Shown here: piece after piece, positions 25,989 to 36,100 of the stretch
How the letters are laid out: the number at the start of each line of letters is the position of its first letter
How positions within the stretch are numbered: the stretch's first letter is position 1
Assembly: GCF_003233655.1 (NCBI RefSeq)
Contig: NZ_CP029832.1
Location: forward strand, 248,001-312,000
Reading direction: 5' to 3'
Source: Azospirillum ramasamyi
GTDB taxonomy: Bacteria > Pseudomonadota > Alphaproteobacteria > Azospirillales > Azospirillaceae
Length of the DNA: 64,000 nt
Translations under genes and position numbers: made by a program
The notes under the pieces: model-generated
What the model was told of the DNA's origin: nothing
What the model saw: only the letters and a program-made list of their open reading frames with translations
Database searches by the model: none

Positions 25989-26948
25989 TCAGCCGATCCG
26001 GTACTCCTCGCGGTGGATCGCCGTCATCGGCAGCCCCTCCGGCCCGATGGCGCCGCGGTACATGCCGGAACAGTTGAAGGGCAGCGCCACCCGGCCGTCG
26101 CGGTCGATGGCGATCAGGCCGCCGGAGCCGCCGATCACGCCCAGCTCGTCCACCACGTCGCCGGCGGCGCGCTCCAGGGTCTGGCCGGCCCAGCGCATGC
26201 GGGCGTCGATCTCGTGGGCGGCGCAGCGGCGGATGAAATGCTCGCCATGGCCGGTGGCGGAGACGGCGCAGGTGACGTTGTCGGCGAAGGTGCCGGCGCC
26301 GATCACCGGGCTGTCGCCGACCCGGCCCTTGGCCTTGGCGGTCATGCCGCCGGTGGAGGTGGCGGCGGCGAGGTTGCCGTCGCGGTCGCGGGCGACGGCG
26401 CCGACGGTGCCGTGGCGGCGCTGCTCGTCACCATCATCGGGGGCGCCGGAGCGGCGGCGCTCAAGCTCGGCCTGCAGGGCGTCCCAGCGCGGCTGGGTGA
26501 AGAAATAGGGGGCCTCCTCCATCGGCAGACCCTGGCGGCGGCAGAGATCCAGCGCGCCCTCGCCGATCAGCAGGACATGCTCGCTGTGCTCCATCACCGC
26601 GCGGGCGGCGAGGATTGGGTTGCGCGGGCCGAACAGTCCGGCCACCGCGCCGGCGCCTCGGTCGCGGCCGTCCATGATGGCGGCGTCCATCTCCTGCCTG
26701 CCCTCGGCGGTGAAGACGGCGCCGCGGCCGGCGTTGAACAGCGGCTCGTCCTCCAGGGCCATGACGGCGGCGGTGACGGCGTCGAGCGCGCTGCCGCCGT
26801 CTGCCAGCACCTCATGCCCGGCGGCCAGAGCCCGGCGCAGGCCGGCATGGTAGCCCTCGGTCAGGATGGGCGTCAGCGCGCTGCGCTTGATGGTGCCGGC
26901 ACCGCCATGGATGGCGAGCGCGAAGGGCTGCGGTTGGGTGAAGCTCAT
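25989..26948 (-). CDS. iaaA: Isoaspartyl peptidase / plant-type asparaginase
   Basis: The 319-aa product is an Ntn hydrolase that splits itself before a nucleophilic Thr, here Thr181 in RRHGTVGAVARD. Conserved neighbours are seen at AIHGGAG (N-terminus), GDSPVIGAGTFAD and TGHGEHF. IaaA removes isoaspartyl (beta-aspartyl) residues from dipeptides. In E. coli it is co-transcribed with the Gsi peptide importer, and here too it is the last gene of a Gsi/Dpp-type operon, 11 bases after the M55 peptidase. Confidence 0.93.
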   Translation of the reverse strand: MSFTQPQPFALAIHGGAGTIKRSALTPILTEGYHAGLRRALAAGHEVLADGGSALDAVTAAVMALEDEPLFNAGRGAVFTAEGRQEMDAAIMDGRDRGAGAVAGLFGPRNPILAARAVMEHSEHVLLIGEGALDLCRRQGLPMEEAPYFFTQPRWDALQAELERRRSGAPDDGDEQRRHGTVGAVARDRDGNLAAATSTGGMTAKAKGRVGDSPVIGAGTFADNVTCAVSATGHGEHFIRRCAAHEIDARMRWAGQTLERAAGDVVDELGVIGGSGGLIAIDRDGRVALPFNCSGMYRGAIGPEGLPMTAIHREEYRIG

Positions 26949-26959
26949 GGTCGCGGGTC

Positions 26960-27793
26960 TCAGCGCAGGGTGGCCGACATGGCCGACAGGGTGTTGATCC
27001 AGCCGAGCACGGCGGCCATGCTGGCGGCCGGCAGACGGACGGTGACGGGGTCGAGGCGTTCGGAAACCGGGATCAGGGCGGCCAGATCGGCCAGCGCCGG
27101 GCTGGTCAACTCGATCTCAACGCGATAGGGCGCCTCGGCGGCTTGCGGCGGGACGCGGAAGGGCGGGATGCTCGCCGCACGGCGGACGGCGCGGGTGGCG
27201 GCCTGGCGGATGCGGTCGCGGGCGACCGTGGGCGCCACGGACCGGGCGGCGCGCTGGCCCAGCGCCTGCTTCACCACCACGCGCTCGGACTCCGGGAACA
27301 AGGGCGCCATCTCGGCGGCGAAGCGGTCATCGCCGCTCAGCAGGATCACCGGCACGCCGATCTCGCCGGCATAGGCGCCGTAATTGCCGGCCTCCCCCAA
27401 CTCCAGCCCGTTCACCCGGACGCGGCCGAAGGCGAAGCTGTTGGTGGTGTGGGCGAGGATGCCGTATTGCCGGGCCGAAGTGTGGAAGCCGACGCACATG
27501 ACGCCCGCGCTGTCCGGCTCCAGCCCGGCGAACATGCCGATCGGCTTCGGGCGGCCCAGGATCAGCTCGGCGGCGGGGTGAAGCTCGTCCGGCAGCAGGT
27601 TGACCATCGGGCCGTGGCTGTCGTTGACCAGGATCTCCGCCGCCCCGCCCTCCAACGCGCCTTCGATGGCGGCGTTGACCTCGGCGGTCATCAGGCGGCG
27701 GGCGCGTTCATACTCGGCATTGCCCGGCGTCACCTGCTGTTGGGAGACGACCCCGGCCACCCCCTCGATATCGGCGGAGATGTAGATCTTCAC
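26960..27793 (-). CDS. dppA: Zinc D-aminopeptidase, peptidase family M55 (DppA)
   Basis: The 277-aa product keeps the DppA zinc and catalytic residues at nearly the same positions as the Bacillus enzyme: Asp8 and Glu10 (SADIEG), His60 (NDSH), His104 (GFH), His115 (ILAH) and Glu134 (LGEAG). DppA releases N-terminal D-amino acids, such as D-Ala from D-Ala-D-Ala. The start is a GTG overlapping the dmpA stop as GTGA. Together with the DmpA-type peptidase and D-amino-acid aminotransferase of the same operon it points to peptides carrying D-residues. Confidence 0.93.
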   Translation of the reverse strand: MKIYISADIEGVAGVVSQQQVTPGNAEYERARRLMTAEVNAAIEGALEGGAAEILVNDSHGPMVNLLPDELHPAAELILGRPKPIGMFAGLEPDSAGVMCVGFHTSARQYGILAHTTNSFAFGRVRVNGLELGEAGNYGAYAGEIGVPVILLSGDDRFAAEMAPLFPESERVVVKQALGQRAARSVAPTVARDRIRQAATRAVRRAASIPPFRVPPQAAEAPYRVEIELTSPALADLAALIPVSERLDPVTVRLPAASMAAVLGWINTLSAMSATLR

Positions 27794-28884
27794 TCTATGC
27801 TCCCGGAGGTCAGGCCATCGGACTTCAGCAGATCGGAAAGGCAGGGCCGGGTGCTGCCGTCACGGCCGACCACCGGCGTGGCGGCGGCCAGCGCGTCGAC
27901 CACCGCCTCCTGCGTCGCGTCGGCCATCGCCTCGAACAGGGCGTCGATGCGGCGCTCGTTCAACATGCGCAACGGCACGATGTCGGCGCGCCCGTCATGA
28001 TCGATGCGGTTGGCGGTGGTGAAGCCCAGCGCGATGTCGCCGCTGCCGTGGCCCCAGAACGACCCGACCCGCGCCAGCCCCACCCCGGCGCGGCGGATCA
28101 CCCGGCGCAGCTGCCGGTGGTCGAGCGGCACGTCGGTGGCGGCGATGACGATGACGGAGCCCTTCTCCGGCGCGTCGTCCTTCGCGGGCGGCGCGACGCG
28201 GCGGCCGTCGGGCAGCCGCAGTTCCCCCGGCCGGCCGAAATTCGCCAGCACCAGCACGCCCAGGTGATGGCGCCTGCCGTCCAGCTTGAGGCGGCGCGAC
28301 GAGGTGCCGATGCCGCCCTTGAAGCCGAAGCAGGACATGCCGCGCCCGGCACCGACGGATCCGACCGCGACCTCGGCCCCGTCCGGTTCGGACAGCGCGG
28401 CGGCGATGGCGGCGGCGGCATGGGCCTCCGTCACCGCCAGGGCCTGGATGTCGTTCAGCGGGCCGTCGTTGCACTCCATCACCACCGGGTTGACGGTGGC
28501 GGTGGTGCGGCCGATGTCGGGGTTGGCGGCGATGGCGTGGCGGACCAGCGCCGTGGACGCGGTGCCGACCGACAGGGTGTTGGTCAGCAGGATCGGGGTC
28601 TCCAGCGCCCCCAGCTCCTCCACCTGCATCAGGCCGACGCTCTTGCCGAAACCGTTCAGCACCTCCGCCGCGGCGACGGGCTTGTCGCGGTAGAGGTTGC
28701 CGGCATGGGGCAGGACGGCGGTGACGCCGGTCTGGATGGCGCCGTCATTCAGGGTGACATGGCCGACGCGCACCCCCGGCACATCGGTGATGGCGTTGCG
28801 CGGCCCCGGCGTCAGCCGGCCGCAGGCGAGCCCGAAGGCCCGCGCCCTGGCCTTGGCATCAGCGGAGTTTGGGGTCGAGGGCAT
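27790..28884 (-). CDS. DmpA-type aminopeptidase, peptidase family P1
   Basis: The 364-aa product matches the P1 family, whose members are activated by autocleavage before a Ser. Here the site is Gly242-Ser243 in [15 protein letters not shown]. The N-terminus has the family run [17 protein letters not shown]. DmpA of Ochrobactrum releases L- and D-amino acids from short peptides; relatives (BapA) cut beta-amino-acid peptides. The 5' end overlaps the upstream permease gene by 26 bases and the 3' end overlaps the M55 gene by four. Confidence 0.92.
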
Positions 28885-29761
28885 CGCGCAATCCGTCGCC
28901 GAGCAGGTTGAAGGCCAGCACCGTCAGGAAGATGGCAAGGCCGGGATAGAATGTGACATGGCTGGCGACGCCGATATAGCTGCGGCCGTCGGCCAGCATG
29001 GCGCCCCATTCCGGGCTGGGCGGCTGGGCGCCGAGGCCGATGAAGCTCAGGCTGGCCGCCGTCAGGATCGAGGTGCCGATGCGCATGGAGACATAGACGA
29101 TCACGCTGGGCAGCGTGCCCGGCAGGATGTGGCGGACCATCAGCAGCCGGTCGCGCACGCCGATGGCGCGGGCGGCGTCGACATAGACGGCGCGCTTCAG
29201 CGACAGGGTGCTGCCGCGCACGAGGCGGGCGAAGACCGGCACGCTGAAGATCGCCACCGCATAGATGACGTTCTCGATGCCCGGCCCCAGGATGGCGACG
29301 ATGCCGATGGCCAGCAGGATGCCGGGGAAGGCCAGCAGCACGTCGCAGATGCGCATGATGAGGCTGTCGACCCAGCCGCCGCGGAAGCCGGCGACCAGCC
29401 CCAGCGCCACGCCGGCCACGCCGCCCAGCAGGACCGACAGCAGCCCGACCGAGAGCGAGATGCGGGCGCCCCACAGGATGCGGCTGAAGATGTCGCGGCC
29501 ATAGGCGTCGGTTCCGGCCCAGTGGTCGGCCGACGGGCCTTCCAGGATGCGGTCGTAATCGAAGCCCGCCGGGTCGTAGGGGGCGATCCAGGGAGCGGCG
29601 GCGGCGGCCAGGGTCAGCGCCAGCAGACAGATGCCGGCGGCCATGGCGGTGCGGTTGCGCCGGAACTTGCGCCAGAATTCGCGCAGCGGCGAACGGACGG
29701 CTTCGTGGCCCGTATCCGAAGGGGTTGCGGCGGCCACGCCGATTGCGTCTGTCGTGGTCAT
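28859..29761 (-). CDS. Peptide ABC transporter permease (DppC/GsiD type)
   Basis: The 300-aa permease has an N-terminal cytosolic tail, a helix ([20 protein letters not shown]), the OppC_N-type segment [20 protein letters not shown] and five further helices with the EAA-like loop around [21 protein letters not shown]. It pairs with the DppB-type subunit, which it overlaps by four bases. Confidence 0.92.
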
Positions 29762-30678
29762 GAGTAGCGAATCTCGGGGTTGGCGTAGGCGTACAGCACA
29801 TCGACCAGCAGGTTGATGATGATGAACTCCAGCGAGAACAGCAGGATCTCCGCCTGGATGACGGTGTAGTCGCGGTAATTGACGCTATCCACCAGCAGCC
29901 GGCCCAGCCCCGGCCAGGAGAACACCGTCTCCACCACGATGGAACCGCCGAGCAGGAAGCCGAACTGCAGGCCGACCATGGTGATGATCGGGATCAGCGC
30001 GTTGCGCAGCGTATGCTTCCACACCACCAGCCGCGACGGCACGCCCTTGGCCCGCGCGGTGCGGACGTAATCCTCGCGCGCGATCTCGATGAAGGCGGAG
30101 CGGGTGAAGCGCGCCATCACCGCGGCGACGCCGAGGCCGAGCGTCAGCGACGGCATGACGAAATGCTGCCACGTCCCATAGCCGCTGGTCGGCAGCCAGC
30201 CGAGCTTGACCGAGAACAGGTCGATCATCAGCAGGCCGAGCCAGAAGGACGGAAAGGCGATGCCCGACACCGCCACCAGCATGCCGGCATGGTCCTGCCA
30301 GCGCCCGCGCTTGGTGGCCGATGCGACACCGATCAGCAGCCCGGCCATCGTCGCCCAGACCATGGCGACGATGGTGAGGTAGAGCGTGGGGAGGAAGCGT
30401 TCGCCGATCTCCTGCGACACCGGCCGCTTGGACTTCATCGACAGCCCGAACTCGCCCTGCACCGCATTGCCGATGAAGCGGCCGTACTGCACCCACAGCG
30501 GCTGGTCGAGGCCGAGATCCTGGCGCACCAGTTCGACGTCGCGCTGGGTCGCATCGGGACCGGCGATCAGCCGCGCCGGATCGCCCGGCAGCAGATGGAC
30601 GAAGCCGAAGACGAAGACGGAAATCACCAGCAGAACCGGCAGGATGCCGGCGACGCGGCCGACAAGATAATTCAGCAT
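29758..30678 (-). CDS. Peptide ABC transporter permease (DppB/GsiC type)
   Basis: The 306-aa permease has six predicted helices, the family N-terminus ([23 protein letters not shown] in the periplasmic loop) and an EAA loop around [16 protein letters not shown] hairpin lies between this gene and the upstream binding-protein gene. Confidence 0.93.
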
Positions 30679-30708
30679 GGGGCAGAGGTCCTGGGTAGGC
30701 AGAGAAAA

Positions 30709-30739
30709 AATCCCCTCTCCCCCCTGGGGAGAGGGGATT
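30709..30739 (-). terminator. Strong hairpin between binding protein and permease genes
   Basis: Perfect 14-base arms AATCCCCTCTCCCC and GGGGAGAGGGGATT enclose a 3-base loop. On the minus strand a run of six T follows, so it can act as a partial terminator or block 3' degradation. Such a structure would keep binding-protein mRNA in excess over the permeases. A similar hairpin occurs at 44774-44798 in the same position of another ABC operon. Confidence 0.7.
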
Positions 30740-30750
30740 CCACACTCACG

Positions 30751-32283
30751 TCACTGCAGATCGGCCTCTTCCATCTGCAGGCCGCCGTCGGCGACATAGT
30801 GGAAGCCGGTCAGCTTCTTCGACTTGCCGGCCAGCAGATTCTCGACGCCGAGGAAGATCCACGGCGCGTCCTTCCAGATCTGCTCCTGGGCGATGCGGTA
30901 GGCTTCGGCGCGCTTGGCGTTGTCGGCGGTGCCGATGCCGGTCTCGATCGCGGTATCGACCGTGTCGTTCTTGTAGTACGCCACGTTGAAGAACTTCGGC
31001 GGGAAGCCCTTGCCCCACAGCAGCGGACGCAGGCCCCAATCGGCATCGCCGGTGGAGGCCGACCAGCCGCTGTACTGCATCTGCACCGTAGCGTCCTCCG
31101 GCTTCTCGACGCTCCAGACGCGGGCGGCCTCGACACCGGATTCGAGCGGGGTGACGGTCAGCTTGACGCCGATCTGGGCCAGCTGCTGCTGCACGAACTG
31201 CATGCCGCGGATGAAGTTTGTGCTGTTGCGGCCGATCATCTCGGCCTCGAAGCCGTTCGGATAGCCGGCCTCGGCCAGCAGCGCCTTCGCCTTGGCGAGG
31301 TCGTAGGTGTACTGGTCCGGCTGCGCGACGTGGAAGCCCAGCTTGGACGGGATCGGCGAATCCAGCGGGCCGGCAAAGCCGCGATAGACCACCTTGGCGT
31401 AGGCGTTCTTGTCGATGGCGTAGTTCAGCGCCTGACGGACGCGCGGGTCGCTGAACGGCTTCTTCATGGTGTTCATCGCCACATAGCGCGCGATGATCGA
31501 CGGGGCGTTGATGATCTCCAGCGCCTGGTTGGCCTCCACCATCTTCACCATTTCCGGCGGCAGCGGATAGATGAACTGCGCCTCGTTGGTCTGCAGCATG
31601 GCGATGCGGCTGCCGTTCTCCGGCACGCTCCTCAGCGTCACGCTGTCGACCTTCGGCAGGCCGGGCTTCCAGTAGTTGGCGTTCTTCTCGACCTTGAGAG
31701 TGTCCGCTTCCCAGCTGACGAACTTGTAGGGGCCGGTGCCGACGGGGTGGCGGCCGATCTCCTTGCCGTAGGTCTCCAGCGCCTTCGGGCTGTGGATCAT
31801 GGCGCCGGGATGGGCGAGGTTGTTGTTCAGCGCGCCGAAGGGCTGCGACAGCTTCAGGGTGATGGTGTGGTCGTCGACCACCACCGTCTCGGCCAGCATC
31901 GCCAGCAGGCTCTGGCGCTTCAGGCGGTTGGCCGGGTTGGACAGGCGGTCGAAGTTGGTCTTCACCGCCTGGGCGTTGAAGGGAGTGCCGTCATGGAAGG
32001 TGACGCCCTTGCGCAGGCGATAGGTGTATTCGGTGGCCGCGTCGTTGACCGTGAAGCTCTCCGCCAGCAGCGGGACCAGCTTCATCTCCTTGTCGAAGCC
32101 GAACAGGCCCTGCATCATCGTGCGGCTGGCCGACTGCGACAGGGTGTCGTTGATGTCGGCCGGATCCAGCGTGGTGATGTTGTCGGGGATGCCGACCACC
32201 AGGTTCTTGGCGGCGAAGGCGGGACCGGCCAGCGCGGTGCCGGCGAGCAGGCCGGCCAGCAGGGGAAGAGCGAAACGCGTCAC
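30751..32283 (-). CDS. Peptide ABC transporter substrate-binding protein (SBP_bac_5)
   Basis: The 510-aa product has a signal peptide (TRFALPLLAGLLAGTALAGPAFA) and the family 5 fold typical of DppA/GsiB binding proteins: NITTLDPADINDTLS near the start, YRLRKGVTFHDGTPFNA, and RPLLWGKGFPPKFFN further on. It would capture short peptides or peptide-like compounds in the periplasm. The ATPase gene ends 22 bases upstream. Confidence 0.93.
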   Translation of the reverse strand: MTRFALPLLAGLLAGTALAGPAFAAKNLVVGIPDNITTLDPADINDTLSQSASRTMMQGLFGFDKEMKLVPLLAESFTVNDAATEYTYRLRKGVTFHDGTPFNAQAVKTNFDRLSNPANRLKRQSLLAMLAETVVVDDHTITLKLSQPFGALNNNLAHPGAMIHSPKALETYGKEIGRHPVGTGPYKFVSWEADTLKVEKNANYWKPGLPKVDSVTLRSVPENGSRIAMLQTNEAQFIYPLPPEMVKMVEANQALEIINAPSIIARYVAMNTMKKPFSDPRVRQALNYAIDKNAYAKVVYRGFAGPLDSPIPSKLGFHVAQPDQYTYDLAKAKALLAEAGYPNGFEAEMIGRNSTNFIRGMQFVQQQLAQIGVKLTVTPLESGVEAARVWSVEKPEDATVQMQYSGWSASTGDADWGLRPLLWGKGFPPKFFNVAYYKNDTVDTAIETGIGTADNAKRAEAYRIAQEQIWKDAPWIFLGVENLLAGKSKKLTGFHYVADGGLQMEEADLQ

Positions 32284-32305
32284 CTGATGTCTTCCTTATC
32301 TTGAT

Positions 32306-34242
<1,937 letters not shown>

Positions 34243-34246
<4 letters not shown>

Positions 34247-35088
34247 CGACCGAGCCTTTCGGCGAACAGCCCGAACATGCGGCGCCACAGCATGCCCGGC
34301 GCGCCGCTGCCCACCGGCTTGCCGTTGAGGCTGGTGACGGGGGTGATTTCCTTGGTGGTGCTGGAGATCCAGATCTCGTCGGCGCCGTCGAGTTCGGCCG
34401 CCGGGATGTCGCGCTCCTCCAGCCGCAGGCCGGCCTCGGCCGCCAGCCGCAGGATGACGGTGCGGGTGATGCCTTCCAGGATGCGGGTGTCGTTGACCGG
34501 GGTGGCGATGACGCCGTCCTTGACCACGAAGATGTTGGTGGCGGCGCCCTCCGTCACCAGACCGTCGCGCAGTTGCAGGGCGTCGACGACGCCGGCATCG
34601 GTCGCCGCCTGCTGCGCCAGCACGCTGCCGAGCAGCGCAACCGTCTTCAGGTCGCAACGGCCCCAGCGGATGTCGGGAATGGTGATGGCGGCCACACCCT
34701 GGTCGCGCCACGCCGCGGGCGGGCGCTTCAGCGGGCTGACCATGCCGAACACCGACGGGGTGACGCCGGCCGGAAAGGCATGGCCGCGGCCGGCGGCGGC
34801 GCCGCGCGTGACCTGGAGATAGACCGTCAGATCGCCGTCGATGCCGGAAGAGGCGGCCAGCCGCTGCATGATGCCCAGCCAGTCGTCGGCCGACAGCGTG
34901 CAGTCGATGCGCAGTTCGGACAGGCCGCGCTGCAGGCGGGCGATGTGCGCCTCCGGCTCGAACAGGCGGCCCTGATAGGCGGCGGTCACCTCATAGAGGC
35001 CGTCGGCGAACAGGAAACCGCGGTCCAGCGGCGACACATGGACCTCGTCCAGCGGCAGGTAACGCCCGTTCCAATAGGAGATCGTCAT
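34243..35088 (-). CDS. dat: D-amino-acid aminotransferase (fold type IV PLP enzyme)
   Basis: The 281-aa product belongs to the class IV aminotransferases with the catalytic Lys148 in [10 protein letters not shown], where Bacillus Dat has Lys145. The N-terminus ([31 protein letters not shown]) and [18 protein letters not shown] are typical. Dat converts D-Ala and other D-amino acids to keto acids. Branched-chain aminotransferase or ADC lyase are the alternatives in this fold, but RCDLKT and the peptidase neighbours favour Dat. Confidence 0.85.
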
Positions 35089-35129
35089 CGCTTTTCAGCT
35101 TCTTTGGCGCGTGGAAAGGAAAGCCCTGC

Positions 35130-36023
35130 TCACTCGGTCGGCCGCTTGGCTTTCGGCACGACGTGGAGGTAGGGAAGGATGCGTTCGGCGACGTCGGCGG
35201 CCTGTCCGACGCTCTCGGGACCGGAGCGGGACAGCGCGGTGCCCAGCGCCACGATCAGCGCCATCAGCCCGGTCGGAGAACTGTGGCGCACGCCATGGTC
35301 GGCCCCGGCCAGCAGGGTGACGTCGGCAAGCGGGACGATCGGGCTGTCCGGCGCGTCGGTCAGCGCGATGGCCTTCGCCCCGCGTTCCCGGCACAGCTGC
35401 AGATGCTCGATGGTCCGGCGCGAATAACGCGGCGAGGTGATGGCGATCACCAGATCGCCGGGCTGCACCGTCATCAGCCGGCGGATGGTGCGCTCGGTGC
35501 CGGCGAATTCGACGGCTTCGCGGACATGGTCGACATAGGGCTCCAGCACGTCGGCCAGGAACAGGGCGAGATAGGCGCTGTCGCCGAGGCCGAGCGCCAC
35601 GACACGCCTGGAGTCGCGGATCAGGCGGATCGCCGCCTCGCATTGTTCGGGCTGCAGCAACTCCATGGTGCGGGTGATGTTGCCGGCGTCGCTGGCCAGC
35701 GATTCCCGCATGATCTCGGCATTGGAGGTGTCGCGCTGCACGGCGACGCGCAGCTTTTCCACCGGGGCGAAGGTGGATTGGAAGGCGCGCAGCAGATCCT
35801 CGCGGAACTCCGGATAGCCGTCATAGCCGAGGAAACGGGCATAGCGGTTGACGGACGCCACCGACACCTCCGCCGCCGCCGCCAGCTCGCCGATCTTCAG
35901 CGTCGCGGTGCGGAAGGGATAGGCCAGCGCCCATTCCCCCACCTTGGCGAGCGCCGCCGGCAGCTGCGGCTGACAGTTCTGCATCCGGATCAGCAGCGAT
36001 CCCGTCTGAATCGGTGGCCCCAT
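35130..36023 (-). CDS. RpiR/MurR-family transcriptional regulator
   Basis: The 297-aa product has an RpiR helix-turn-helix (about 30-75: KIGELAAAAEVSVASVNRYARFLGYDGYPEF) and a SIS sugar-phosphate-type domain (about 130-265: RRVVALGLGDSAYLA, VIAITSPRYSRRTIE). RpiR proteins often sense amino-sugar phosphates, as MurR senses MurNAc-6-P. It is the first gene of the peptide operon, 41 bases before dat, and a dyad lies 53 bases upstream of its start. Confidence 0.92.
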   Translation of the reverse strand: MGPPIQTGSLLIRMQNCQPQLPAALAKVGEWALAYPFRTATLKIGELAAAAEVSVASVNRYARFLGYDGYPEFREDLLRAFQSTFAPVEKLRVAVQRDTSNAEIMRESLASDAGNITRTMELLQPEQCEAAIRLIRDSRRVVALGLGDSAYLALFLADVLEPYVDHVREAVEFAGTERTIRRLMTVQPGDLVIAITSPRYSRRTIEHLQLCRERGAKAIALTDAPDSPIVPLADVTLLAGADHGVRHSSPTGLMALIVALGTALSRSGPESVGQAADVAERILPYLHVVPKAKRPTE

Positions 36024-36075
36024 CCCCTCGACGCCTTCTCGAAAAGCCGAAGCGTGGCTTGTGTGAGGATGGAGT

Positions 36076-36100
36076 TACAGGATTTTCATATTCCTGTAAA
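36076..36100. promoter_or_regulatory. Inverted repeat, candidate RpiR operator
   Basis: Perfect 8-base arms TTACAGGA and TCCTGTAA are separated by 9 bases. The site lies between the divergent rpiR and fliG genes, 53 bases before the rpiR start, in an AT-rich stretch suited to a promoter. Binding by the RpiR protein is inferred from position and symmetry. Confidence 0.5.

Follow-up and report, generated by a model that had tools for sequence, protein, structure and literature searches.

A Gsi-type importer clustered with three peptidase genes and an RpiR regulator in Azospirillum ramasamyi and other Pseudomonadota

Introduction

What would a bacterium gain by encoding a peptide importer together with three peptidases, an aminotransferase and a regulator? 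The question is raised by a locus of Azospirillum ramasamyi (NCBI RefSeq assembly GCF_003233655.1; genome size 6.3 Mb) within a 64,000-nucleotide stretch of contig NZ_CP029832.1 (positions 248,001 to 312,000, the whole of which we call the window), where nine minus-strand open reading frames (ORFs) run from position 36023 to 25989 in the order rpiR, dat, gsiA-D, an S58 peptidase gene, an M55 peptidase gene and iaaA. As a preliminary description made from the sequence alone had it, the genes are tightly packed on one strand, with intergenic gaps from rpiR to iaaA of 41, -4, 22, 72, -4, -26, -4 and 11 bases (thus -26 to +72), and they may well be co-transcribed. Its family assignments also hold, a profile search placing all nine products above the curated Pfam cut-offs of their families (HTH_6 with SIS, Aminotran_4, ABC_tran in two stretches, SBP_bac_5, BPD_transp_1 in two proteins, Peptidase_S58, Peptidase_M55 and Asparaginase_2).

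We consider it moderately probable that these genes form an RpiR-controlled catabolic operon for the import and cytoplasmic digestion of small peptides that resist ordinary peptidases. GsiB would capture peptides that ordinary peptidases handle poorly, and GsiC, GsiD and GsiA would bring them into the cell. There IaaA may trim N-terminal beta-aspartyl (isoaspartyl) bonds and the M55 enzyme N-terminal D-residues, the S58 enzyme would remove further N-terminal residues and, in Azospirillum and the few relatives that have it, Dat would transaminate the freed D-amino acids. We infer the order of these reactions, the class of the ligand and its D-, beta- or isoaspartyl specificity. Below we set out the conservation of the cluster, its active sites, its kinship with the Escherichia coli Gsi system and its upstream element, and then weigh other explanations.

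Conservation and Distribution

Two genome draws and a set of named loci were used (G and L numbers are our handles for genomes and loci). In both draws genomes were chosen by M55 alone and the neighbours inspected afterwards, each neighbourhood being judged from the DNA around M55. Of 397 Pseudomonadota genomes drawn evenly, with completeness of at least 90%, 23 had M55 above cut-off (at 24 full-length places), 144 had S58 and 116 had IaaA; the DNA around M55 was inspected in all 23, the window included, with G329 and the second, weak match of G528 omitted. Beside M55 stood gsiABCD in 18 of the 23, S58 as well in 17 (the gsi-bearing G543 lacks it, and in G428 it is found as two matches), iaaA in 15 and a detectable rpiR in 11. 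Outside the window's class gsiABCD adjoined M55 in 15 of 15 genomes. The grouping of gsi with M55 is far beyond chance, and the expectation of the preliminary description that the genes be conserved together elsewhere came through this co-occurrence search unrefuted. The core set is more widely spread than could be told from the sequence alone, but its occurrence within the window's class is patchy.

For the named loci, the best 80 by M55 similarity were taken from 452 confirmed ones; several are cut by contig ends, many are near relatives, and gene presence was called by identity thresholds of our own choosing. Among them gsiABCD was present in 54, S58 in 64, iaaA in 54, rpiR in 43 and dat in 11, and the seven core genes occurred together in 42. 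The nearest relatives of the M55 gene in this set are all from Azospirillum (8 loci, 79–94% identity). Seven of these (L035, L037–L042) keep all nine genes in the same order at 76–97% protein identity, and the eighth, L036, is cut by a contig end. The 11 loci with dat beside the set come from Azospirillum (seven loci), Arenibaculum, Inquilinus, Paracoccus methylarcula and Siculibacillus, and few lineages have Dat as an accessory. Of the dedicated pathway suggested earlier, an import-and-hydrolysis unit—co-linear, conserved together and with a palindrome before rpiR in several lineages—is supported; Dat, which that description counts in, occurs in only 11 of the best 80 of 452.

Clusters of the form rpiR-iaaA-gsiABCD-S58-M55 are found in the betaproteobacteria Collimonas, Bordetella, Achromobacter and Paraburkholderia. 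They share the core genes of the Azospirillum locus and, in most, the same palindrome, but iaaA stands second after rpiR in the named betaproteobacterial loci, whereas in alphaproteobacterial loci with gsi it mostly comes last after M55, and no Dat was found in the betaproteobacterial loci. Search listings of the open-licence full-text literature gave no description of the full unit, and viral contigs gave no match to the M55 patterns.

Several M55 loci hold further genes. An ORF that we read as Xaa-Pro-aminopeptidase-like (M24) recurs in 17 betaproteobacterial loci, of which 15 are from Bordetella or Achromobacter, and at L100:10765-12627 directly follows M55; this is the one use made of an all-against-all clustering of neighbour ORFs, which shadow ORFs swamped. 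In Inquilinus (L047) a Pfam-confirmed M24 peptidase gene follows iaaA. Among M55 relatives without the gsi set, L074:7382-9944 adjoins a DAO-family oxidoreductase and a C69 peptidase, and L057:8504-9937 and L059:8279-9748 adjoin beta-lactamase-family genes; the DAO-family and beta-lactamase-family neighbours are in keeping with a D-residue theme, without being proof of it. The locus titled Bacillus subtilis SK6B4 (L064) has an M55 at 53% identity to that of the window, with Pseudochrobactrum at 53–54%, and its title looks wrong.

Peptidases and Aminotransferase

The catalytic residues named in the preliminary description are all present: Ser243 in the S58 enzyme, Asp8, Glu10, His60, His104 and His115 (plus Glu134) in M55, Thr181 in IaaA and Lys148 in Dat. 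Residue conservation was read from a hand-picked set of 44 loci (39 M55-linked and 5 E. coli-type), counting rows that pass a 70% coverage filter. The M55 product matches its Pfam family at 310 bits (cut-off 25) with metal ligands and His115 in place, and the six active-site residues are invariant in 39 of 39 M55-linked rows. Its sole solved relative by sequence is B. subtilis DppA (1hi9). The earlier name DppA holds at the level of the M55 family and not at that of the Bacillus-type DppA equivalog NF058634 (189 bits against a cut-off of 430).

The term DmpA-type fares likewise for the S58 enzyme. Family membership is clear (378.7 bits, cut-off 23.9), and the Gly-Ser autocleavage site, KGS243 in the window, has Ser in 32 of 32 rows. 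The nearest solved structure is 2drh (304 bits), annotated "hypothetical D-aminopeptidase" and presumably PH0078 of Pyrococcus, ahead of 5tzb (200), 1b65 (183) and 3n2w (153). The DmpA/BapA beta-aminopeptidase subgroup does not take in this enzyme, its nearest relative being neither 1b65 nor 3n2w and Asn139 standing in place of the active-site Tyr (which we take to be Tyr146 of DmpA). Because DmpA and BapA are both more distant from it than another subgroup is, a D- or beta-specificity for it would be a guess.

IaaA has the Thr nucleophile and the Asp-binding residues of an isoaspartyl peptidase; Thr181, Thr199, Arg209, Asp212, Thr232 and Gly233 are invariant in 36 of 36 rows, and Ser213 varies. 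It falls below the cut-off of the E. coli equivalog (305 against 567 bits) and is closer to the alpha chain of 8dqm (210 bits) than to that of E. coli (121 bits). We take 8dqm to be the Roseivivax IaaA, an enzyme from a cyanophycin cluster that cleaves every beta-Asp dipeptide tried according to the part of PMC10206079 consulted.

Dat combines Lys148 with an R-x-H motif and scores below two D-amino-acid transaminase cut-offs (250.4 against 277.45 bits and 260.9 against 320 bits). The R-x-H motif plays a role in D-amino-acid transaminases; among the genes checked, it is present in Dat of L035, L041, L046 and L047 and absent from the Dat-like genes of L069, L079 and L134. Read by eye, the N-terminus of GsiB alone has an apparent signal peptide and those of the four enzymes have none, and we place the enzymes, provisionally, in the cytoplasm.

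The Importer and Its Kinship with E. coli Gsi

The importer is of the Gsi type in the broad sense: it has a fused two-domain ATPase, an SBP_bac_5 binding protein and two permeases, and it falls with E. coli Gsi while the Dpp-type outgroups stand apart. By the narrower NCBIfam equivalogs, GsiC alone passes its cut-off; GsiA (893.5 bits against 1077), GsiB (narrowly) and GsiD fall below theirs. The best Protein Data Bank match of GsiB is 1uqw (YliB, the E. coli GsiB) at 518 bits. GsiB has a gap at the carboxylate-binding Arg of the dipeptide-binding DppA, Arg355 (the signal of that protein has 28 residues). In 44 of 44 GsiB rows Ser410 occupies the place of the Asp of DppA that binds the amino end of the dipeptide, Asp408 in the portion of PMC3295651 that describes it. 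Moreover, of the 99 columns conserved among M55-linked GsiB rows, 87 have the identical residue in each of the five E. coli-type rows. Judging by these residues, the GsiB pocket is therefore of the Gsi kind and not the Dpp kind. Gamma-glutamyl and beta-aspartyl peptides, both linked through a side chain, could fit one such pocket.

E. coli K-12 does have iaaA-gsiABCD, as the preliminary description stated. The two systems share the importer family and the neighbour iaaA, but in E. coli no S58, M55, RpiR or Dat gene adjoins, and iaaA comes first there and last in Azospirillum. In trees built on the 44 hand-picked loci, namely of GsiB (nodes of 22 rows at support 100 and of 20 at 97), of GsiA, GsiC and GsiD (21 rows at 100) and of GsiC and GsiD (22 rows at 100), the E. 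coli-type sequences lie among the betaproteobacterial cluster rows; a four-protein tree, from which the long-branched L024 was omitted, sets the betaproteobacterial rows apart from the E. coli-type at support 81. A joining of the E. coli-type with the M55-linked f172 rows was rejected (p-value of the approximately unbiased test, p-AU, 3.4e-05); f172 is gammaproteobacterial, and some rows are betaproteobacterial, as judged from trees and gene order. Three genomes of one family (G576, G428 and G573) have two sets each, iaaA-gsiABCD of the E. coli type and, apart from it, gsiABCD-S58-M55 (paired loci L119/L136, L120/L137 and L129/L138). Given the trees, the rejected f172 joining and these three genomes, the E. 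coli-type and M55-linked sets belong to one family but are distinct systems.

A tree constrained to keep the 39 M55-linked rows in one group, against the E. coli-type and outgroups, was unrejected at 0.05 (p-AU 0.071), the outgroup branches being long. Outgroup-rooted trees of GsiB and of GsiC with GsiD favour the E. coli-type as a derived, reduced form, a direction of change that is not firm. It is conceivable, though on the whole doubtful, that the glutathione importer of E. coli descends from rpiR-iaaA-gsiABCD-S58-M55, which would be an ancient system of proteobacteria for isopeptides and D-residue peptides (gamma-glutamyl, beta-aspartyl, and D-Asp or isoAsp from protein ageing), of which E. 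coli would have retained the importer and IaaA alone. If so, genes called "glutathione ABC transporter" would often be named for a side substrate.

A quick IaaA tree put solo IaaA rows between the alpha- and betaproteobacterial ones and, with the differing gene order, prompted the idea that iaaA was recruited independently in the two classes. The idea was dropped: one clade was unrejected (p-AU 0.764) and the tree holding it was the better, in a test that omitted two long-branched solo rows, L149 and L151. Among 20 hand-picked IaaA neighbourhoods gsi adjoined in 4 (L136–L139) and in none of the other 16.

B. subtilis dppABCDE likewise pairs an M55 D-aminopeptidase with an importer that uses a family-5 binding protein, but the importer is Dpp-type there and Gsi-type in Azospirillum; that operon is not known to include an S58 or IaaA gene.

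A Candidate Operator Upstream of rpiR

A palindrome of the form TGWAAA-N4-TTTWCA precedes rpiR. With at most two mismatches to TGTAAANNNNTTTACA it occurs in 46 of 52 rpiR upstream regions, a proportion that overstates independence because the regions are related, and in about 1.3% of shuffled regions (two-base-block shuffles, 20 per region). Over the 52 regions, 12 are exact, 21 have one mismatch, 13 two, 5 three and 1 four; the six without it are L046, L067, L079, L087, L111 and L127. Exact copies stand in 7 of 8 Achromobacter regions, in both Bordetella ansorpii regions and in Curvibacter, and among alphaproteobacterial regions outside Azospirillum the palindrome is present in one of five (L047). 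The best-conserved block of eight aligned Azospirillum regions holds TGAAAA..ATTTACAG...TGTAAC, with the ATTTACAG and TGTAAC parts in all eight (L037 being too short to use). The pattern TTTACAGN{12,15}TGTAAC has a single match in the A. ramasamyi genome. The degenerate palindrome has one further exact match there, at G000:C2:174089, probably by chance since the adjoining ORFs read as transposase and acyltransferase genes; when one mismatch is allowed the genome has 9 matches, and the reversed pattern has 6. The palindrome is probably the operator that RpiR would bind.

Expression values come from a table in PMC5357869 of Ralstonia solanacearum genes changed in plant colonisation, of which we consulted a passage: -2.72 for the regulator RSc1377, -3.44 for the isoaspartyl peptidase RSc1378, -2.23 for GsiC (RSc1381) and -3.11 for the D-aminopeptidase RSc1384. 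RSc1377-1384 looks like the Ralstonia counterpart of the cluster, its numbers fitting the eight-gene order, and the joint change of these four genes speaks for a unit.

Weighing the Alternatives

An importer for glutathione, glutathione disulfide (GSSG) or gamma-glutamyl peptides as in E. coli, with accessory peptidases digesting the remnants and other peptides, is the rival nearest to hand, and we judge it rather unlikely. The 518-bit match of GsiB to its E. coli namesake and the GsiC score above the equivalog cut-off speak for it, as does the single group, at support 100, that unites E. coli-type and betaproteobacterial versions. A Ralstonia gsiABCD, which would be RSc1379-1382, is called a glutathione transporter in the part of PMC5615195 seen, and E. 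coli Gsi is reported, in a passage of PMC11719327, to import GSSG. Yet glutathione is not known to require a D-aminopeptidase, an S58 enzyme or an isoaspartyl peptidase, the three genomes that keep both set types suggest different jobs, and GsiA, GsiB (narrowly) and GsiD miss their equivalog cut-offs. Gamma-glutamyltranspeptidase has 5 match places in the genome, some partial, and glutathione could therefore be handled elsewhere.

The solved relative of M55, B. subtilis DppA (1hi9), would instead point to scavenging of peptidoglycan stem peptides (L-Ala-gamma-D-Glu-mDAP-D-Ala), in parallel with the B. subtilis dppABCDE-ykf operon. Stems contain D-residues, among their bonds is a gamma-linked D-Glu, D-Ala or D-Glu could serve Dat as substrate, and the RpiR family includes MurR, to which the regulator has a weak NCBIfam match. 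This is improbable in our estimate: IaaA is known for beta-Asp and not gamma-Glu bonds, the nine genes include no LD-carboxypeptidase, gamma-D-Glu-mDAP peptidase or epimerase (the latter two sought there only), and the whole genome has no S66 LD-carboxypeptidase match at E 0.001. Still less credible, indeed very improbable, is scavenging of the cyanophycin dipeptide beta-Asp-Arg. The closeness of IaaA to 8dqm, if that is the Roseivivax cyanophycin-cluster enzyme, recommends it, but that enzyme is promiscuous as far as the part of PMC10206079 consulted goes, the best cyanophycin-synthetase match in the genome reaches 220 bits against a cut-off of 850, no cyanophycinase was found among the nine genes, where alone it was sought, and M55, S58 and Dat would be left unexplained.

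A catabolic operon for peptidase-resistant peptides remains the account that we favour, and the following weigh against it. In the phylum draw, gsiABCD adjoins M55 in only 3 of 8 genomes of the window's own class, M55 lacks adjoining gsi in 5 of 23 genomes (G029, G427, G432, G436 and G585, the last having two M55 genes, one of which has S58 alongside), and gsi and M55 occur without iaaA in the locus in 3 of 23. A draw of 289 genomes of the class gave M55 above cut-off in 15, and the gsi-S58 set stood beside it in only 3 of the 15 (the A. ramasamyi genome, G041 and G224); 14 of the 15 were inspected (15 regions of 13 genomes, plus the window), the fragment G027 being omitted. L021 and L022, with M55 identities of 61% and 57%, have no gsi nearby (L021 lies near a contig end), and the importer genes found near M55 in L023, L027 and L028 show a much lower similarity, of the Dpp-like kind. 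A SIS domain suggests a sugar-phosphate-like effector and not a peptide. Asn139 of the S58 enzyme aligns to the Tyr of 1b65 in 32 of 32 rows. With 87 of 99 columns common to E. coli-type GsiB, the ligand could therefore be glutathione-like, and E. coli GsiB is reported, in the portion of PMC6236770 seen, to bind glutathione (GSH) and GSSG. Other catabolic genes also fall in the Ralstonia table, whose consulted passage has 4 of the 8 cluster genes.

Features of the Locus

The features are collected in Table 1, in which the start of gsiA, placed at the ATGA overlap with dat, slightly corrects the preliminary description. M55, S58 and the IaaA family each have a single match genome-wide, all within the nine-gene locus. 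A quinone-oxidoreductase-like gene follows iaaA on the same strand (25911-24922). Scans gave 1 promoter-like site against 0.7 in shuffles, and 2 terminator-like sites against 3.8.

Table 1. Genes and upstream elements of the cluster, in window positions.
Feature	Position	Strand	Basis
Candidate RpiR operator, palindrome TGAAAACAGATTTACA (TGWAAA-N4-TTTWCA), beginning 87 bases upstream of the rpiR start codon	36095..36110	-	
TTTACAG-N14-TGTAAC element, overlapping the candidate operator, conserved in Azospirillum	36074..36100	-	
rpiR, MurR/RpiR-type regulator (HTH_6 + SIS)	35130..36023	-	Pfam
dat, class IV aminotransferase, motif RG(5)RGHAF, Lys148	34243..35088	-	Pfam; under NCBIfam D-amino-acid transaminase cut-offs
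gsiA, two-domain ATPase	32306..34246	-	Pfam, NCBIfam, start-codon position
gsiB, binding protein, N-terminus read as signal peptide	30751..32283	-	587.8 bits vs GsiB equivalog cut-off 594
gsiC, permease	29758..30678	-	499 bits, above GsiC cut-off 463
gsiD, permease	28859..29761	-	437.6 bits, cut-off 484
S58 (DmpA-family) aminopeptidase, nucleophile Ser243	27790..28884	-	Pfam, residues
M55 (DppA-family) D-aminopeptidase, metal ligands and His115 intact	26960..27793	-	Pfam, residues
iaaA, isoaspartyl peptidase/asparaginase, nucleophile Thr181	25989..26948	-	Pfam, residues

Several Azospirillum relatives have another GsiA-like ATPase gene, downstream and on the other strand (L035:15686-17674, and also L036–L039 and L042); the window was not found to have one. 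The partial 220-bit cyanophycin-synthetase-like match lies outside the window at G000:C4:222635-223555, some 50 kb away from the operon, and is probably another ATP-grasp enzyme.

Significance

The cluster links three little-studied peptidase families, an importer and a regulator in one recurring unit, and its palindrome offers a concrete candidate operator. It raises the question of how far the E. coli label "glutathione ABC transporter" carries. Finally, with the importer adjoining M55 in 15 of 15 genomes outside the class and in 3 of 8 inside it, the role of M55 in Pseudomonadota becomes testable.

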